Position numbers and translations under genes: made by a program
Shown here: piece by piece, positions 3,768-50,369 of the stretch
Layout: the number at the start of each line of letters is the position of its first letter
Position numbering within the stretch: the stretch's first letter is position 1
Origin: Planctomycetota bacterium
Lineage (GTDB): Bacteria; Planctomycetota; Phycisphaerae; Phycisphaerales; SM1A02
Assembly: GCA_003671025.1 (NCBI GenBank)
Contig: QWPW01000025.1
Location: forward strand, 1 to 50,369
Direction: 5' to 3'
DNA length: 50,369 bases
Notes under the pieces: generated by a model
Told to the model about the DNA's origin: nothing
Database searches by the model: none
The model's input: the letters and a program-made list of their open reading frames with translations, nothing else

Positions 3768-3871
3768 AGGGGCGAGGAGGATATCACGGTCGCTTCAATC
3801 GTTGTGGCAGGTGAGCGCCGACACGAATCGTTCGCGGCGCGCCAATGTCCAAGGGACGAGCGTTGTGGACA

Positions 3872-4029
3872 GCGTCGTGGACAGGCACAAAATTCACGGA
3901 CGAGCGTCGTGAGCGTCGTGGACAGGCACAATTTTCACTGATGAGCATCGAGGACAGGATCATTTTCACTGAGTCGATCGCGGCCAGGCACAAATTCTGC
4001 GCGAGTCGATCGCGGCCAGGCACAAATTC
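3872..4029 (+). repeat. Direct-repeat array, GG(A/C)CAGGCACAAWTTC family (left of transposase)
   Basis: Five units of about 26 bp start at 3872, 3913, 3945, 3971 and 4003. The core is GGACAGGCACAA or GGCCAGGCACAA followed by AWTTC; the unit at 3945 is degenerate (GGACAGGATCATTTTC). The last two units share a 27-bp near-identity starting GAGTCGATCGCGGCC. The array fills most of the 320-bp gap between sucC (divergent) and the transposase start. The same core occurs in opposite orientation beyond the transposase (5491-5624) and again at 50067-50207. Unit spacing is irregular, so this is not a CRISPR. Confidence 0.85.
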
Positions 4030-4088
4030 CGCGCTGCAAAACTGTGGTGAATTTCAGAACCGCTCAAAACCACATGTAACTTCATCAC

Positions 4089-5255
4089 ATGGCACAGCGA
4101 CGATCGCACATCGTGGATGCATTCATCTCAGGCGTGTATCACTGCACTTCGCGTTGCGTGCGCAAGGAGTCGCTTCTCCGCGATCCCCTGCGCCGCGCGT
4201 GGATTATTGCTCGCCTCGAGTTTCTCGCGCACTTCGCCGCGATTGACGTTGTCTCGTTTTGCGCGATGTCGAACCATCTTCACCTCCTGCTCGTCACTCA
4301 TCCCGAACTCGTGGCGACGTGGTCAGACTATGAGGTCGCGCGGCGCAAAGTCATACTCCTTGCATGTCTTCGCATGCATTCGAAGTCATTAGATTGCGAC
4401 GAAGAGACTGCGCTCGAGCGTGAAATTGCCATGATGCTCAGCATCCCCGCGCGCATTCGTGCCGCGCGGCGTGATCTCTCGAGTCTGAGTTTCTTCCACA
4501 AACTTCTCAAGGAACCATGCGCGAAAATGTGGAATCGCGAAGACAACGTCACCGGCCACTTTTGGGAGGGTCGATTCAAGTCTCGCAAGGTTCTCGATTG
4601 GCCTTCACTTGAAAGGGTCGCCGCGTACATCGAACTGAACGAAGTGCACGCCCGCGTTGCGACCTCAATTCCGACGAGCTTGTGGAGCTCTGGGCAACTC
4701 CAATGGGAGCGATTGAGCGATGGGCTGCCGGACGTATGCGCGGACAGCGCGGTGGCGAATGCAAGTGTAGATGCGTCCCAGCGCGTGCTTGAACTTCGGT
4801 GGGAGCCGGTGTTTCCTTGTCAATCCGCGGAGGGCGAAGGATTGGTTGCGCACGCGCGGCCGCCCATGTTTCCCACCGAGTGCGCCAACCGAGCGCCGAG
4901 TTTGCTCCGCCACATTCATCGCGTGGATCAGGCTGGTCGTCGTCGTCGACCAGACAAGGCTGGTTGGATTTCGAAGTCACAGCCCGACGCGGTGAGTGAA
5001 GCGATCGCGCGCGTGCTTCCGAGGCTGTTACGCGGGAGTCGTGCGGTCAAACTTGCTGCGCGATCGATTGCGAGTTGGTGGAGAGAGATGCGTCGGGCAA
5101 TCGATTCGCAACTCGATCCGATCCCGTTTGACCAATGCGCGTTGAGCATGCTGGATGCCGCGCGAGGGAGTTGCTACGGGAGCAAAGAAGCCGTCGCGCG
5201 CGAAGCACTTCGACGCGGGCAACGCCGAATGGTGGCGGTGTGGAGCGGCGTGTAG
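4089..5255 (+). CDS. REP-associated tyrosine (Y1, HUH) transposase, RAYT family
   Basis: A 388-residue protein of the Y1_Tnp/IS200-like superfamily. The N-terminal GVYHCTSRCV matches the conserved 'yHvtsRg' strand. The metal-binding HUH motif is SNHLHLLL (His63, His65), and the catalytic tyrosine is probably Tyr180 in AAYIELNEVHARV, which matches the family's 'rYIelNPvra'. GHFWEGRFKS (about 157-166) is another family hallmark. Members are single-copy, chromosomally domesticated nucleases that cut and rejoin single-stranded REP-like hairpins. The C-terminal extension (190-388) is basic and poorly conserved. No Shine-Dalgarno is evident before the ATG. Repeat arrays lie on both sides in inverted orientation. 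The frame remains open for 56 codons beyond the TAG at 5253-5255. Confidence 0.93.
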   Translation: MAQRRSHIVDAFISGVYHCTSRCVRKESLLRDPLRRAWIIARLEFLAHFAAIDVVSFCAMSNHLHLLLVTHPELVATWSDYEVARRKVILLACLRMHSKSLDCDEETALEREIAMMLSIPARIRAARRDLSSLSFFHKLLKEPCAKMWNREDNVTGHFWEGRFKSRKVLDWPSLERVAAYIELNEVHARVATSIPTSLWSSGQLQWERLSDGLPDVCADSAVANASVDASQRVLELRWEPVFPCQSAEGEGLVAHARPPMFPTECANRAPSLLRHIHRVDQAGRRRRPDKAGWISKSQPDAVSEAIARVLPRLLRGSRAVKLAARSIASWWREMRRAIDSQLDPIPFDQCALSMLDAARGSCYGSKEAVAREALRRGQRRMVAVWSGV

Positions 5256-5327
5256 CAGCGCGGACTGCCTGAAACATCTGAAAACGGTTGGCGACGACGC
5301 GGAGCTTGTGCTCTCGCGTGTTTTCAA

Positions 5328-5501
5328 TTGGTGAGGTGTGGAAAACGGGCGCGTGATGCGGCTCCGATTTGCGTGGATGAGGTGCTAGAAGCGGACCGGT
5401 TTGTCGAAGCACGCTGGTGCGGATGAGTTTTGTGGATGATTCGTGCGCGAATTGCGTAGTCGCGGCGCGTTGGCGGTCGGTTTCGAACAATGTGCCTGGC
5501 C
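5328..5501 (+). repeat. 173-bp dispersed repeat block, copy 1
   Basis: This segment aligns without gaps to the reverse complement of 50197-50369, at about 77% identity by hand count. The identical runs include GATGAGTTTTGTGGATGATT-like sequence and the shared end CAATGTGCCTGGCC. It begins about 70 bp after the transposase stop and runs directly into the GTGCCTGG repeat array. In frame 0 relative to the transposase both copies encode RDAAxxCVDExLEAxRxVE and stop at the same TGA position, with several synonymous differences. It is probably part of the transposase-linked element. Confidence 0.8.
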
Positions 5502-5624
5502 CACGTCCCTCCTACGTGCCTGGCCCAAGTCCCTTCGACCAATGTGCCTGGCCCGAGTCCCGCCCGAGTCCCTTGGCCCGAGTCCCTATGTGCCTGACTC
5601 GAGTCCCTTCGATCAAAGTGCCTG
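5491..5624 (-). repeat. Repeat array, CAGGCACA family in inverted orientation (right of transposase)
   Basis: Five copies of (T)GTGCCTG, four of them followed by GCCC or A/T-CTC, begin at 5491, 5516, 5543, 5589 and 5618. They are separated by variations of CGAGTCCCTT. On the minus strand the core reads GGGCCAGGCACA, which matches the left-hand array at 3872-4029. Together the two arrays bound the transposase as an imperfect inverted repeat. Confidence 0.85.
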
Positions 5625-6001: not shown

Positions 6002-6057
6002 ACTTGTGTGCCTGTCCGCGAAGCCGCCAACTTGTGTGCATGTCCGCGAAGCCGCCA
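6002..6057 (+). repeat. 28-bp tandem duplication
   Basis: Two adjacent 28-bp units (6002-6029 and 6030-6057) start ACTTGTGTGC and end GCGAAGCCGCCA; they differ at one base (C6012 versus A6040). The first contains TGTGCCTGTCC, the inverted CAGGCACA core. It lies between the tRNA and the conserved start of the helicase, inside a possible N-terminal extension of that gene. Confidence 0.85.
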
Positions 6058-44255: not shown

Positions 44256-45683
44256 TCAACTGCACGGACCCCAGTTTGCAAGCAACGCTGCCAGATCACC
44301 ACCGTCATTGGCGCCGCTGCCGTCGTAGTCGTAACTCGCGCCGCCGACTTCAATCACACCCCACGCACTCAGCAGCAGCGCGAGATCCGAAGCGCCAACC
44401 GTCGCATCTCCATCGAGATCACCCACGCATGCGCAGGGGCGATACGCGGTGAAGTTTGCGCGCAGCTCTTGGATGCTGCGCGCGTTGTCGCGCTCGTCCA
44501 CGAGACCAGTTGCGGTTCCTTGATAGATCGTGGTGGGTGAAGAGAAACGCGGAATGCGCGTACCTGGCGTGTAGGCCATGACGGTTCGATACTGCGAGCC
44601 GTTCGTCCCCGTGAAGCGATGCCCGACCGAGTACGGGAAGTAGCCGCCCGAGGTACATCCGCCACCATCTCCGGGCGCATGACAGCATCCCATGTTGTGC
44701 CCGCATTCATGGGTAAACGTGCGACCAGCAATGCAGCCGAGCGCGACCACGTTGAACGCGTAGCCACTGTTCGATTCACCACCGCCGAGCCACGCGATGC
44801 CGCATGCGCCACCGCCATCGGCGCGAATGAGCGACACTAAATCAGCGCCATACAAATCACGCGCAACCACCGCGCTATCGAGCAGACCGTCGCTGCCATC
44901 GCGCAGCGCGTAGAGATCGCTCGACATGGAGCTGGCCTCAACGTAACCCGTCATGCGTCGCGTGCCCACGAGGCGCATCGTGAGCGTGATGCCCGACGCG
45001 CTGTAGATGGAGTTCGAATCGGCAACCGCAAAGTTGATGCTGTCGAGGATTCCCGTCTCGCTTCCCGCTTGCGCGACGGCGGCGTCGGTGTAGCAAATGA
45101 AGATGTCCACGGTGTTGATCGCGCTGCATGTTCCTGCAACGCCACCTTCGCCAGGGACGAGTGGAACGTCGCGCGGTTTGTTGGATGGTGCCGCAAGCTC
45201 GTCACTCGCGCACATCGAATCGAGTGAAGCGTGTTCGACGCGGTACTGCGAACGACCAGTGCTGCGGCTGGTCAAGGCGATGCGAAGATCGCCGCCACTC
45301 TCGATCGTGCCTACGACGCGTCCGTCACGCAGCAGCAGCGACGCGTGCACGGCTTGCGCTTGCGGATGTTCGAACACGAAGAGCTCGCCCGAGGCGTCAC
45401 ACGCGCGGCGAACGAGTTGCATCGCGGCAAAGCGTGCGCGCGATTTCGCATCAATGTGCGCACCGAGCGCGGCGAACGCTGGTGGAAACGCGTCGCCGAG
45501 TTGGAGCGACGCCAGCGATGCGGGATCGAACGTGCACAGGGATGTGGTCTCGTTCGCGGCAACCGTTGCGACAGCAAGCGGGGCGTCGTTCGCGCGCAAG
45601 GGTTGCACAAGGAGAAGCGCAAGCACTGTTGAAGTAAACATCAATTGCACTATCGCCTGTCGGCGCGCAAACGCCAAGCGCAT
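44256..45683 (-). CDS. Secreted reprolysin-like (M12) zinc metalloprotease with dockerin-like tail
   Basis: A 475-residue exported protein; the signal is MRLAFARRQAIVQLMFTSTV and following (frame open to 45710). A prodomain of about 180 residues ends near PLVPGEGGVAGTC. The catalytic domain then carries the metzincin motif HECGHNMGCCH (about 324) and the Met-turn YRTVMAYTPG. GDGGGCTSGGYFPYSVGHRF lies between them. The C-terminal 55 residues form two Ca2+-binding loops (GDLDGDATVGASDL and YDYDGSGANDGGDL), each followed by LLSAWG/LLANWG, ending GPCS. Probable function is extracellular proteolysis. Its neighbour at 45849 is a paralog with the same architecture plus Cys-rich repeats. Confidence 0.9.
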   Translation of the reverse strand: MRLAFARRQAIVQLMFTSTVLALLLVQPLRANDAPLAVATVAANETTSLCTFDPASLASLQLGDAFPPAFAALGAHIDAKSRARFAAMQLVRRACDASGELFVFEHPQAQAVHASLLLRDGRVVGTIESGGDLRIALTSRSTGRSQYRVEHASLDSMCASDELAAPSNKPRDVPLVPGEGGVAGTCSAINTVDIFICYTDAAVAQAGSETGILDSINFAVADSNSIYSASGITLTMRLVGTRRMTGYVEASSMSSDLYALRDGSDGLLDSAVVARDLYGADLVSLIRADGGGACGIAWLGGGESNSGYAFNVVALGCIAGRTFTHECGHNMGCCHAPGDGGGCTSGGYFPYSVGHRFTGTNGSQYRTVMAYTPGTRIPRFSSPTTIYQGTATGLVDERDNARSIQELRANFTAYRPCACVGDLDGDATVGASDLALLLSAWGVIEVGGASYDYDGSGANDGGDLAALLANWGPCS

Positions 45684-45848: not shown

Positions 45849-48011
45849 TTACGGACAGAAGCCCCACGCGGAGAGAAGAATCGCGAGGTCGGCGGCGTTC
45901 ACGAAACTGTCGCCGTTGAGATCGGCTCCGCTGCCGCCCCAGCCACCCAAGAGAATCGAGAGGTCTGCCGCATTGGTGTTGCCGTCGTTGTTGAAGTCCG
46001 TCGGACATGCGGGGCAGAAGGCGTTCGACTCATTCACGCAAAAGCTGTCCCACTGAGAATTGCAACAGTAGGGATCAATGTCGCACACCTGCGTGCAGCA
46101 CGCCGCGTCGGCGCAATATGGAGTTGGATGCACTTGTAAGCAATTGCCGCTCGAGGGGTTTCCGCAACCGGCGCAGTTTGTAACGGCCGCGCCCGAACAT
46201 GAGAAATCCCACTGGTTGTTGCAGCAGAATGGGTCAGCCGCACAGACGAGATTGCAACAGGCGGCATCCGCGCAGTAGGGAGTGGCGTGAGGTTCGTAGC
46301 ACGACAGCGCATTGGGATTACCGCAGCCCGCACAGTTGGTGATCGCTGCGTTGGAGCAGAACGAATCCCACTCGGTGTTACAACAGAACGGATCGGCAGC
46401 ACACACACTCTCGCAACAGACGGCATTGTCACAGAACGGCGTGTCGTGCACGATGTAGCACGAGCCAGTCTCGGCATCGCCACAGTTGGGACAGAGTGTG
46501 ACGGCTGCGTTAGCGCAGAGGTTGTCCCACTGGTTGTTGCAGCAGAATGGATCGGCAGCACACACCGTTGCACAGCACGATGCGTTGTCGCATGAAGGAT
46601 TGATATGTGTGAAGAAGCATGAACCCGCTGCTAATTCGCCGCAGTTGCTGCACAGTTCGAGAGCCTCACTCACGCACACCGAATCCCATGTGGTCAAGCA
46701 GCAGTAGTTGTCGAAATCGCAGACGGCCGCGCAGCACGCACTATCGTTGCAGCCGGGGGCTGCATGAATGGAGTAACACCCGCCGCCGCTGCCGCAGGAA
46801 CCGATGCCATCTGCAGAGCAGCGGAAGTTGCTAACCGCGAGCGCGGTTTCGTTGATCGTGCGTGCGTTGTCGCGCGTTCCCGCGATGCCAGTCGCGACGC
46901 CGGCCCACGTGGCGATTGGGCTGGAAAAGCGGGGAATACGCGTGCCCGGCGCGTAGGCCATCACCGTTCGATACGCAATTCCGTCGCTGCCAGTGAATCG
47001 ATTACCGAGCGAATACGAGAACACTCCGCCGGTTGTGCATCCACCACCGTCTCCTGGCGCATGACAACAACCCATGTTGTGGCCGAGTTCATGCGTGAAG
47101 CTCAGGTTGGAAAAACAACCGAGAGCACACACACTGAATCCGAGTGCTGATTGCCCGGAACTGTTGCTCGGCAGAATCCACGCGATACCGCAGGCGCCAC
47201 CACCATCGCTCCGCACCATGGCGACGAGGTCGGCGCCCACTGAATCGCGTAACGCATGAACTCCATCGATGATCCCATCGCTCGTGCTGGAGAGTCGATT
47301 GAGATCGACTAGCATGTCGCCGCTCTGTACATAGCCGGTGAGTCGCGACGTCCCTACGAGGCGCACAGAGAGTCCGACCGACGAACTGGTGTAGATCGCA
47401 TTTGAGTCGCCAATGGCCCACGAAATGGAATCAAGAAGACTCGCTTCGCTTCCTGCTTGCCCAACGGCCGCATCGGTGTACACAACGAGCACATCAACCT
47501 TGCTCCCGTTGTCACAGCTGCCAGCAACGCCGCCGTCGAGCGGCTGCGGTTGACCAGGCATGTCGTGACCAGTGGTGCCGCATGGAAGATCGAGCCGCGC
47601 GTCTTCGAGGCTCACGCGTGAGAGTCCAACATCTTCACTGGTGAGCACCGTGCGCATATCGCCGCCCGAGTAGATCACGCCCGTGAGTCGGCCTTCACGC
47701 AGAAAGAGCGAAGCGCGTGCCGAGGGATTGAGGGGATCAGAAAAGCTGTAAAACGCGCCGTTTTCGTGCGCGTTTCGCGAGACCAGCATCATGCCGCGTA
47801 GTGCGCCGTTGGCGCCGAACTTCCCGTCGAGCGCCATCAAGTCGCTGGGGATCATTCCCGACGGATCGATCTCACTAAAGGCGTTGGGATCGAACTGCAC
47901 CGATTCCATCAGCCGAGGCGGCGCGAAGTTTGCCGGTGCGGGTGAGTTTGAAGCTGGCGCGAGCAGGAGGCCTGCTGTCGTCGCCATTGCGAGAAATGCG
48001 AGATCCACCAT
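45849..48011 (-). CDS. Secreted reprolysin-like metalloprotease with five Cys-rich repeats and dockerin-like tail
   Basis: A 720-residue paralog of the 44256 gene. The start MVDLAFLAMATTAGLLLAP is a signal; AAGGGG lies 8 bases ahead of the ATG. The prodomain and catalytic domain match the paralog, with HELGHNMGCCH (about 306) and YRTVMAYAPG. From about 405 to 665 there are five tandem repeats of about 45 residues, each with about 10 cysteines, in the pattern C-x4-H-x2-P-x-C-x4-CC-x3-C-x-x-D-xx-CC-x4-WD-x-x-C-x7-C-x2-C. They resemble small disulfide-knotted modules seen in planctomycete secretomes. The last 55 residues are two Ca2+ loops (DFNNDGNTNAADL, DLNGDSFVNAADL) ending AWGFCP. Confidence 0.9.
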   Translation of the reverse strand: MVDLAFLAMATTAGLLLAPASNSPAPANFAPPRLMESVQFDPNAFSEIDPSGMIPSDLMALDGKFGANGALRGMMLVSRNAHENGAFYSFSDPLNPSARASLFLREGRLTGVIYSGGDMRTVLTSEDVGLSRVSLEDARLDLPCGTTGHDMPGQPQPLDGGVAGSCDNGSKVDVLVVYTDAAVGQAGSEASLLDSISWAIGDSNAIYTSSSVGLSVRLVGTSRLTGYVQSGDMLVDLNRLSSTSDGIIDGVHALRDSVGADLVAMVRSDGGGACGIAWILPSNSSGQSALGFSVCALGCFSNLSFTHELGHNMGCCHAPGDGGGCTTGGVFSYSLGNRFTGSDGIAYRTVMAYAPGTRIPRFSSPIATWAGVATGIAGTRDNARTINETALAVSNFRCSADGIGSCGSGGGCYSIHAAPGCNDSACCAAVCDFDNYCCLTTWDSVCVSEALELCSNCGELAAGSCFFTHINPSCDNASCCATVCAADPFCCNNQWDNLCANAAVTLCPNCGDAETGSCYIVHDTPFCDNAVCCESVCAADPFCCNTEWDSFCSNAAITNCAGCGNPNALSCYEPHATPYCADAACCNLVCAADPFCCNNQWDFSCSGAAVTNCAGCGNPSSGNCLQVHPTPYCADAACCTQVCDIDPYCCNSQWDSFCVNESNAFCPACPTDFNNDGNTNAADLSILLGGWGGSGADLNGDSFVNAADLAILLSAWGFCP

Positions 48012-49720: not shown

Positions 49721-49838
49721 CACATCACACTACTCCAAGTCGCGTCATGATTGAGCACAGCTCTGACACTGGTGCGCAAAGGTCTATCGGGCGCGGGCAT
49801 CGTCTCACACGGGGCAGTCACTTAGGATCGTTCGCATA

Positions 49839-50040
49839 TCGAACGAAACTCTCGCCGGATGGCTTGACTTGACCGTGCCTGACGCTTCGCGTGCGCGGAG
49901 CTTTTACGCCCAGGTGCTCGGGGTCTCCCACAGCGCCGTCGCGATGTTTGATGCTCGCGGTGATTACGCCGATTTTTGTTTGCACGTGGGTGATCCCGCG
50001 GTGACTCCGCCGCTGGCAGGAGTTTGTCATGCGCGAAGCC
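49839..50040 (+). pseudogene. VOC/glyoxalase-family gene, truncated by repeat insertion
   Basis: The translation WLDLTVPDASRARSFYAQVLGV, VSHSAVAMFDARGDYADFCL and ending GVCHAR is the first half of a VOC-superfamily protein of the glyoxalase/bleomycin-resistance type. The family normally continues with 'G...LPPQWLIY' and a second beta-alpha-beta repeat. Instead, from about 50041 the sequence turns into short repeats (CCACCAACC, CAGGCACA) that continue to the window edge. The in-frame start is unclear: no ATG is found, and the first TTG is at 49869. The downstream half, if it exists, is beyond the window. I infer disruption by the CAGGCACA element. Confidence 0.7.
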
Positions 50041-50066
50041 ACCACCAACCCAGGACCACCAACCCA

Positions 50067-50207
50067 GGACAGGCACGCACCAACTCGCACCAACTCTGGA
50101 CAGGCACATCATCAACCCGCACCACACCAACCCGCACCCACCAACTCGCACCCACCAACTCCAACTCACAACTCAAGACAGGCACATCAAATTCAGGCCA
50201 GGCACAT
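50067..50207 (+). repeat. Repeat array, CAGGCACA family (third site)
   Basis: Four copies of (G)G(A/C)CAGGCAC start at 50067, 50098, 50176 and 50196. Between them lie ACCAACTCGCACC-type runs. The last copy, GGCCAGGCACATTGATCA, joins the 173-bp block. It has the same core as the arrays flanking the transposase about 45 kb away. Confidence 0.85.
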
Positions 50208-50369
50208 TGATCAAAACCAGCGGACAGCGCCCGCGCCTTAGGCAGTTCGCCCACCAATCATCCACAAAACTCATGTGCATCGGCGTGGTTCGACAATTCG
50301 AACCGCCTCTAAGGCCTCGTCTACGCAAAACGAAGCCGCATCGCGCGCCCAATTCCCACACCTCGCCAA
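50197..50369 (-). repeat. 173-bp dispersed repeat block, copy 2 (reaches window edge)
   Basis: Its reverse complement aligns without gaps to 5328-5501 (about 77% identity by hand). The conserved run ATGAGTTTTGTGGATGATT and the shared end CAATGTGCCTGGCC show common origin. The reading frame RDAASFCVDEALEAVRIVE stops at the same place as in copy 1. By analogy with copy 1, a minus-strand RAYT gene may lie just beyond the right edge. Confidence 0.8.

Follow-up and report, generated by a model that had tools for sequence, protein, structure and literature searches.

TIRtrons are described as RAYT-like genes lying between inverted repeats unrelated to REPs, some of these TIRs sharing the sequence GGGGWSAS, and in their description no obvious correlation was seen between TIR number and the gene (Di Nocera et al. 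2013, PMC3733652). Twenty of 26 TIRYTs are assigned to TnpAY1 subclass 2.1, with the motif YIELNP and no REP (PMC6006769), and section 12 of the same article reports that no REP-like sequences were found for subclasses 2.1 and 2.3. In REPtrons the RAYT (TnpAREP) gene is associated with REPs and BIMEs (PMC2817692, PMC8266576); according to PMC8266576 there is no evidence of tnpAREP mobility. As characterised in these articles, TIRtrons (PMC3733652) and REPtrons are the closest known kind to the locus described here.

The window (the whole stretch of DNA analysed, 50,369 nucleotides) is the entire contig C18 of a 3.25 Mb genome in 68 contigs, and position 50369 is the final base of that contig. 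The reading preferred here, to which a probability of roughly 85% is given, is that a RAYT unit of this planctomycete consists of a Y1 HuH gene bracketed by two arrays of a linear repeat, ATCGNGG[A/C]CAGGCACATTT, that point inward, and that a block at 5328-5501, which recurs at the far end of the window, is its 3' tail. The features concerned are as follows:

3854-4034, + strand: upstream array of GG(A/C)CAGGCACA repeats, with sites at 3879, 3920, 3982 and 4014 (motif search)
4089-5255, + strand: RAYT-type Y1 HuH transposase gene, 388 aa, with NHLH, WE and YIELN motifs and a long C-terminal extension (motifs, Pfam, fold)
5256-5490, + strand: probable noncoding 3' tail of the unit; the block at 5328-5501 comprises the end of this tail and the first of the downstream repeats (comparisons of copies)
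5491-5624, - strand: downstream array, repeat inverted (TGTGCCTG...) (repeat and motif search)
49833-50039, + strand: N-terminal fragment of a VOC-like gene, ending about where the array starts (a relative in genome G010 is longer, with 129 residues between the start of the match and the stop)
50041-50206, + strand: repeat array adjoining the second tail, with CAGGCA at 50070, 50101, 50179 and 50199 (motif search)
50196-50369, - strand: probable second tail copy, cut by the contig end (repeat search, BLAST, 127-nt identity to the start of contig C51 and to the end of contig C98, binned with genome G031)

Comparison with described systems

By anatomy and motifs the units described here fit the TIRtron kind; their protein is longer and reads YIELNE, and the match to GGGGWSAS is inexact. 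As described for TIRtrons (PMC3733652), a RAYT-like gene lies between inverted repeats that have no relation to GTAG REPs, and the repeats also occur elsewhere in the genome, singly or grouped. On the other side, GGGGWSAS, which is shared by some TIRs only, was exact in only 1/89 repeats of the same genome and 5/79 repeats flanking RAYT genes (NNGGWSAS was present in 65/89 of the former), the repeats here form tandem arrays of a linear repeat with a unit-specific suffix, several units are present per genome, and repeat number tracks the gene within the genus, unlike the TIR numbers reported in PMC3733652.

With REPtrons, as described in PMC2817692 and PMC8266576, the locus shares a gene between inverted repeats, the HuH/Y1 fold, repeats that are commoner where the gene is present and repeats that are gene-specific. 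It differs in that the repeats of this genome are non-palindromic and hairpin-free (no hairpin or palindrome was found in 89 units; mean z -0.16, 9% below -2) with a consensus that has no GTAG foot, and in that several units are present per genome, whereas PMC8266576 makes the statement on mobility given above. Classification of the repeat as a REP by its hairpin was rejected, the consensus being linear, with neither a hairpin nor a GT(A/G)G foot. The Y1 HuH fold is also shared with IS200/IS605 elements; here, however, there is no hairpin at the repeats and the copies have diverged.

The RAYT protein

Residues N62, H63, H65, Y180 and N184, among them the HuH motif and the catalytic tyrosine, were invariant in 28/28 aligned proteins. 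The window protein scored 23.8 bits with Pfam Y1_Tnp (cut-off 23) and 31.2 bits with the NCBIfam RAYT model, below its 80-bit cut-off; in a genome search with PF01797 the RAYT genes of contigs C40 and C65 fell below the cut-off and the window gene was absent from the listing. An AlphaFold2 model (mean pLDDT 84.4) had as its nearest fold the E. coli RAYT 4er8 (Foldseek E 1.6e-4; Z 12.8, rmsd 3.1, 157 aligned), followed by the IS608 and ISDra2 transposases, in a comparison covering mainly residues up to 340 of 388. A sequence search of the PDB gave 0 matches.

The NHxH, WE and Y-I-E-L-N motifs, the long C-terminal extension and the lack of a hairpin REP are all features of TnpAY1 subclass 2.1 as set out in PMC6006769; the window protein differs from it in having YIELNE rather than YIELNP, in its length (388 aa against a median of 238) and in that no HTH was found by Pfam at E 5, a search that likewise found no C-terminal domain. 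Y---NE was present in the window protein and its nearest relatives, and Y---NP in 8 of the 9 most distant rows of the 28.

The short repeat

The sequence GGMCAGGCACA was found in 97 copies in the genome, while its reversed control gave 0, and 86 of the 97 sites were grouped in 22 clusters; the consensus given above is that of 89 distinct units from this genome. Within 500 nt of RAYT loci, G(G/T)(A/C)CAGGCA was counted 51 times forward and 5 times reverse upstream, and 2 times forward and 39 times reverse downstream (31 loci of this and related genomes, taken from 35 listed matches; L016 and L005 are one locus and were counted once). The five bases after the core agreed between the two ends of a unit at 2.96/5 compared to 1.55 when shuffled (0/20000; 17/31 loci, kinship ignored), the other 14 loci having been left out for want of sites at one end or at both. 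Suffixes after the shared core GGACAGGCA were, for example, CA, TG, AG and CTCGC, with variants such as GGACACGCA, and where RAYT loci of the family lacked the core, several carried other inverted repeats of like form (e.g. GGACACGCA and GGACACACA). Among 26 further RAYT loci at the level of the phylum, several of them with flanks cut by contig ends, 7 had GGACAGGCA within 600 nt, all inward-facing and 0 at both ends. At locus L045 an inverted repeat could not be clearly made out, and L054 extended past the end of its contig. It is the repeat, not the tail, that carries the real signal.

Many repeat arrays had no RAYT gene inside the stretch taken, and some of them reach contig ends; when 20 further genome stretches around repeat sites were compared with 14 RAYT proteins, a match was found in C65 only. 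The arrays at the starts of C30, C54 and C67 were likewise without a RAYT gene in the stretch taken, and L031 (G000:C59) carried 13 repeat sites at about 33-nt spacing (1247-1684), with no RAYT gene within its 3-kb stretch. Other arrangements were also seen: a pair of inverted repeat sites in L032 (G000:C62, 255-336), separated by about 70 nt and resembling a REPIN built from a linear repeat; palindromes GGACAGGCAAGCC..GGCTTGCCTGTCC, which are fused inverted repeats, around the RAYT gene of L019 (G031:C29); a forward repeat in L023 with a reverse one at a distance of 1.3 kb, where the open frame between them looks like an ordinary secreted protein; and, past the tRNA of the window, two 28-nt tandem copies containing another TGTGCCTGTCC (6002-6057). 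Among the matches listed in a search of literature text for the letters of the repeat motif, none concerned bacterial repeats; in a second such search the two articles containing those letters were mammalian studies.

The repeated block and its extent

An earlier note had described the block as a gapless repeat, about 77% identical, shared with the far end of the window. A repeat search and a direct count bore this out: 5328-5501 and the reverse complement of 50196-50369 (one base more than the 50197 first given) aligned ungapped over 174 nt with 134/174 identities (77%), which is 15 s.d. over the mean of all ungapped reverse-strand placements in the window, the runner-up having 73/174. Both copies do run into CAGGCACA arrays, as claimed. 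The match was also said to run end to end, and it is ungapped throughout; its limits, however, are an edge effect, since it stops neatly at 50369 because contig C18 ends there, and in C40 the homology continues upstream of the block, through the RAYT gene. Elsewhere in the window, 44542-44756 and 46924-47138 form a 215-nt direct repeat, 71% identical, within two neighbouring long reading frames.

The BLASTN check proposed for further copies found them, with an alignment far above chance. The block was found at 4 places in its own genome (the window-end match at E 3.2e-36, 79%), both of the contig-interior ones sitting after a RAYT gene, and, among the candidates scored in 61 genomes, at one place outside it, the end of C98 in G031, which is the contig end shared with C18 and C51 (see below). 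Every copy seen, in the genome itself or among the candidates scored in 60 relatives, lay beside a RAYT gene or at the end of a contig. The suggestion of a dispersed RAYT-linked element was right as to the link and the several places, but an element in its own right found no support, and a solitary dispersed element was rejected on these grounds.

The order of array, gene and tail seen in the window recurs in C40 (protein 82% identical, block 80%), and C65 carries a third unit whose RAYT protein is 66% identical to that of the window. The tail comes after the RAYT gene in C18, C40, C65 and C98, and identity between copies passes from gene into tail without a sharp break, dropping somewhat near the tail end. 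These comparisons argue that the block is very probably the untranslated 3' tail of a RAYT unit and not a separate element.

The second copy at the contig end

When reverse-complemented, the window end has exactly 127 bases in common with the start of C51, and the same 127 bases form the end of C98. The latter contig contains a RAYT gene (69% identical) and is binned with G031, a member of the window's family. Beyond the 127 bases the tails of the C18 end and C51 differ at 4/43 compared positions, after which arrays and flanks differ. An exact 127-nt overlap of three contigs is the pattern that would be expected of a k=127 assembly-graph branch, and such a branch would put C18, C51 and C98 in one assembly. 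Composition placed C98 nearer to the window's genome (0.172) than to G031 (0.189), a margin below that of any of twelve window pieces; as it fits G031 about equally well, composition was dropped as evidence for the origin of C98. This contig (L116) bears a RAYT gene, shares a 127-mer with two contigs of another bin and contains a 352-base N run.

The 127-mer common to three contigs, one of them in another bin, and the N run in C98 would suit an assembly or binning artefact, but as a full account an artefact is scarcely credible and was refuted by the contig-interior copies: both the tail at 5328 and that of C40 are internal to their contigs and are 20% different, and an artefact accounts only for the point at which the second copy stops. 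The tails at the window end and in C51 might instead be solitary ones, of the sort reported for some BIMEs, in which the tail is copied and the gene is not; Nunvar et al. (PMC2817692) describe four cases in which rayt 3' ends plus the following tail lie within BIMEs, and neither the C18 end nor C51 carries a RAYT gene beside its tail. This is nevertheless very unlikely, as the 127-mer in which C18 and C51 both end precisely is also the end of a contig with a RAYT gene, and both contig-interior tails among the 4 places follow a RAYT gene. Very probably the copy at the window end belongs to another RAYT unit as its tail, and the gene of that unit would lie beyond the contig break.

The VOC-like fragment on the other side of this array was 54% identical to its G010 relative over its length, and the second half of the gene was not found in its own genome, where the sole match was the known fragment. 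Among the loci of 14 relatives, only that of G010 had a VOC gene at the neighbouring hydrolase.

Constraint, structure and coding potential of the tail

The earlier note took the divergence of the copies as a sign of an old, maintained element rather than a recent copy, and as a plausible structural part of a dispersed RAYT-linked element. Age is partly supported: diverged copies exist (RAYT proteins 66-82% identical to that of the window), but over 127 nt the copy at the window end has the same sequence as C51 and C98. Maintenance is not established by the comparison of copies. Tail identity was level with or below that of 4-fold sites in 4/6 copy pairs (C18/C40, 0.81 and 0.83 at 4-fold sites; C18/C65, 0.61 and 0.60; C40/C65, 0.66 and 0.67; C65/C98, 0.59 and 0.65) and above it in two, both with C98 (C18/C98, 0.82 and 0.65, Fisher P = 0.0005 from rounded fractions; C40/C98, 0.77 and 0.68). 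Four of the six pairs therefore look neutral, and the two that join C98 to its nearer partners do not; constraint on the C98 tail, or exchange, relative to C18 and C40 is possible. Two units of G031 with proteins 73% identical had tails at 0.45 against 0.60 at 4-fold sites, and tails of this genome and of G031 were 0.40-0.45 identical.

A tail functioning as a structured RNA or DNA element (a regulatory RNA, or a terminal structure for movement), and conserved for that reason, was weighed against these figures. A stretch of 169-312 nt (median 240) separates the RAYT stop codon from the first downstream repeat in all 17 units measured, the three closest tails (C18, C40 and C98) have no indels between them, and the C98 tail is nearer to those of C18 and C40 than 4-fold sites are. 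Folding of the + strand gave mildly negative values on average (z -3.1 to 1.1, mean about -0.9; -1.2 to -1.8 for five tails of this genome), and one hairpin was nearly unchanged at alignment columns 42-64. On the other hand, z was below -2 in just 2/20 tails, Rfam at gathering scores matched only a tRNA in the window, the covariation term of the consensus fold was unfavourable at +1.21 (6 sequences, about 4 independent; weak power), which also counts against a structural part as proposed in the note, and the G031 tails diverge as described. A structured RNA was rejected on Rfam, fold z and covariation, at low power, and such a functional element is considered improbable. A coding tail was also rejected: substitutions showed no reading-frame phase in 6 pairwise tail comparisons, and one antisense frame, open in 4/4 compared tails, was without a coding pattern. 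The stop-to-repeat stretch is thus present in the 17 units measured, but its sequence is not kept.

Distribution of the repeat and of the unit

Across 61 genomes the excess of the repeat over control had a median of 8.8 in the 10 genomes with a RAYT match compared to 0.90 in the 51 without (P = 4e-5, kinship ignored). Within the genus, 6/6 genomes with a RAYT match (E <= 1e-10) had the repeat at least 4.8-fold over control and 9/10 genomes without one had it at most 2-fold over control (kinship ignored in both counts), the exception being G010 (78% complete), with no RAYT match and a 19-fold excess. Outside the genus, the RAYT-bearing genomes G026, G034 and G036 gave values of 0.5 (no excess), 1.7 and 2.5, respectively. 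The repeat is in excess where a RAYT gene is present, with exceptions.

The unit of the window lies in a sucC-tRNA gap of 2.08 kb. The neighbouring helicase gene was found in 13 relatives, 5 of which had sucC together with the tRNA on one stretch; the gap was 77-167 bp and held no unit in 4 of these 5 checkable relatives, and in the fifth it was 1.26 kb, with no CAGGCA or TGCCTG. These gaps are not exact empty sites, because the tRNA is in the opposite orientation in G010 and G003, and neither an exact empty site nor an excised circle was seen among the genomes compared. In L061 (G001:C6) the sucC-tRNA gap has three degenerate repeats (ATCGCGGCCAG followed by A-runs) at the junction of the window's unit. 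The anatomy of the unit, its copies, its matched ends and its absence from the sucC-tRNA gap of checkable relatives are all shown by sequence comparison.

Proposed mechanism and meaning

Most likely, we infer, repeat DNA is cut in single-stranded form by the RAYT protein, which would also copy the repeats and perhaps the whole unit. The transposase would recognise the repeat in single-stranded DNA, its catalytic tyrosine would nick beside the repeat, and repeats, or at times the entire array-gene-tail-array unit, would be copied or moved, with the tail presumably carried along as spacer and transcript end. The case for movement of whole units depends on an assembly branch and on bins, not on sequencing reads. 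A more specific proposal, offered tentatively and on balance doubtful, is that in this planctomycete family a Y1 HuH transposase acts on linear, hairpin-free repeats with a transposase-specific 3' suffix and moves the entire unit and not just the repeats; the near-identical tails of the C18 end and C51 would then mark separate recent insertions of a single unit, in one case within a VOC gene.

The block itself is ordinary and of little importance; the unit that surrounds it exemplifies well a kind that has received little study. Across the units, transposases are naturally paired with matching linear repeats of their own, a series that would allow repeat recognition by hairpin-independent RAYTs to be mapped directly, and the linear repeats suggest what to seek in subclasses 2.1 and 2.3, for which the cited section of PMC6006769 records no REP-like sequences.
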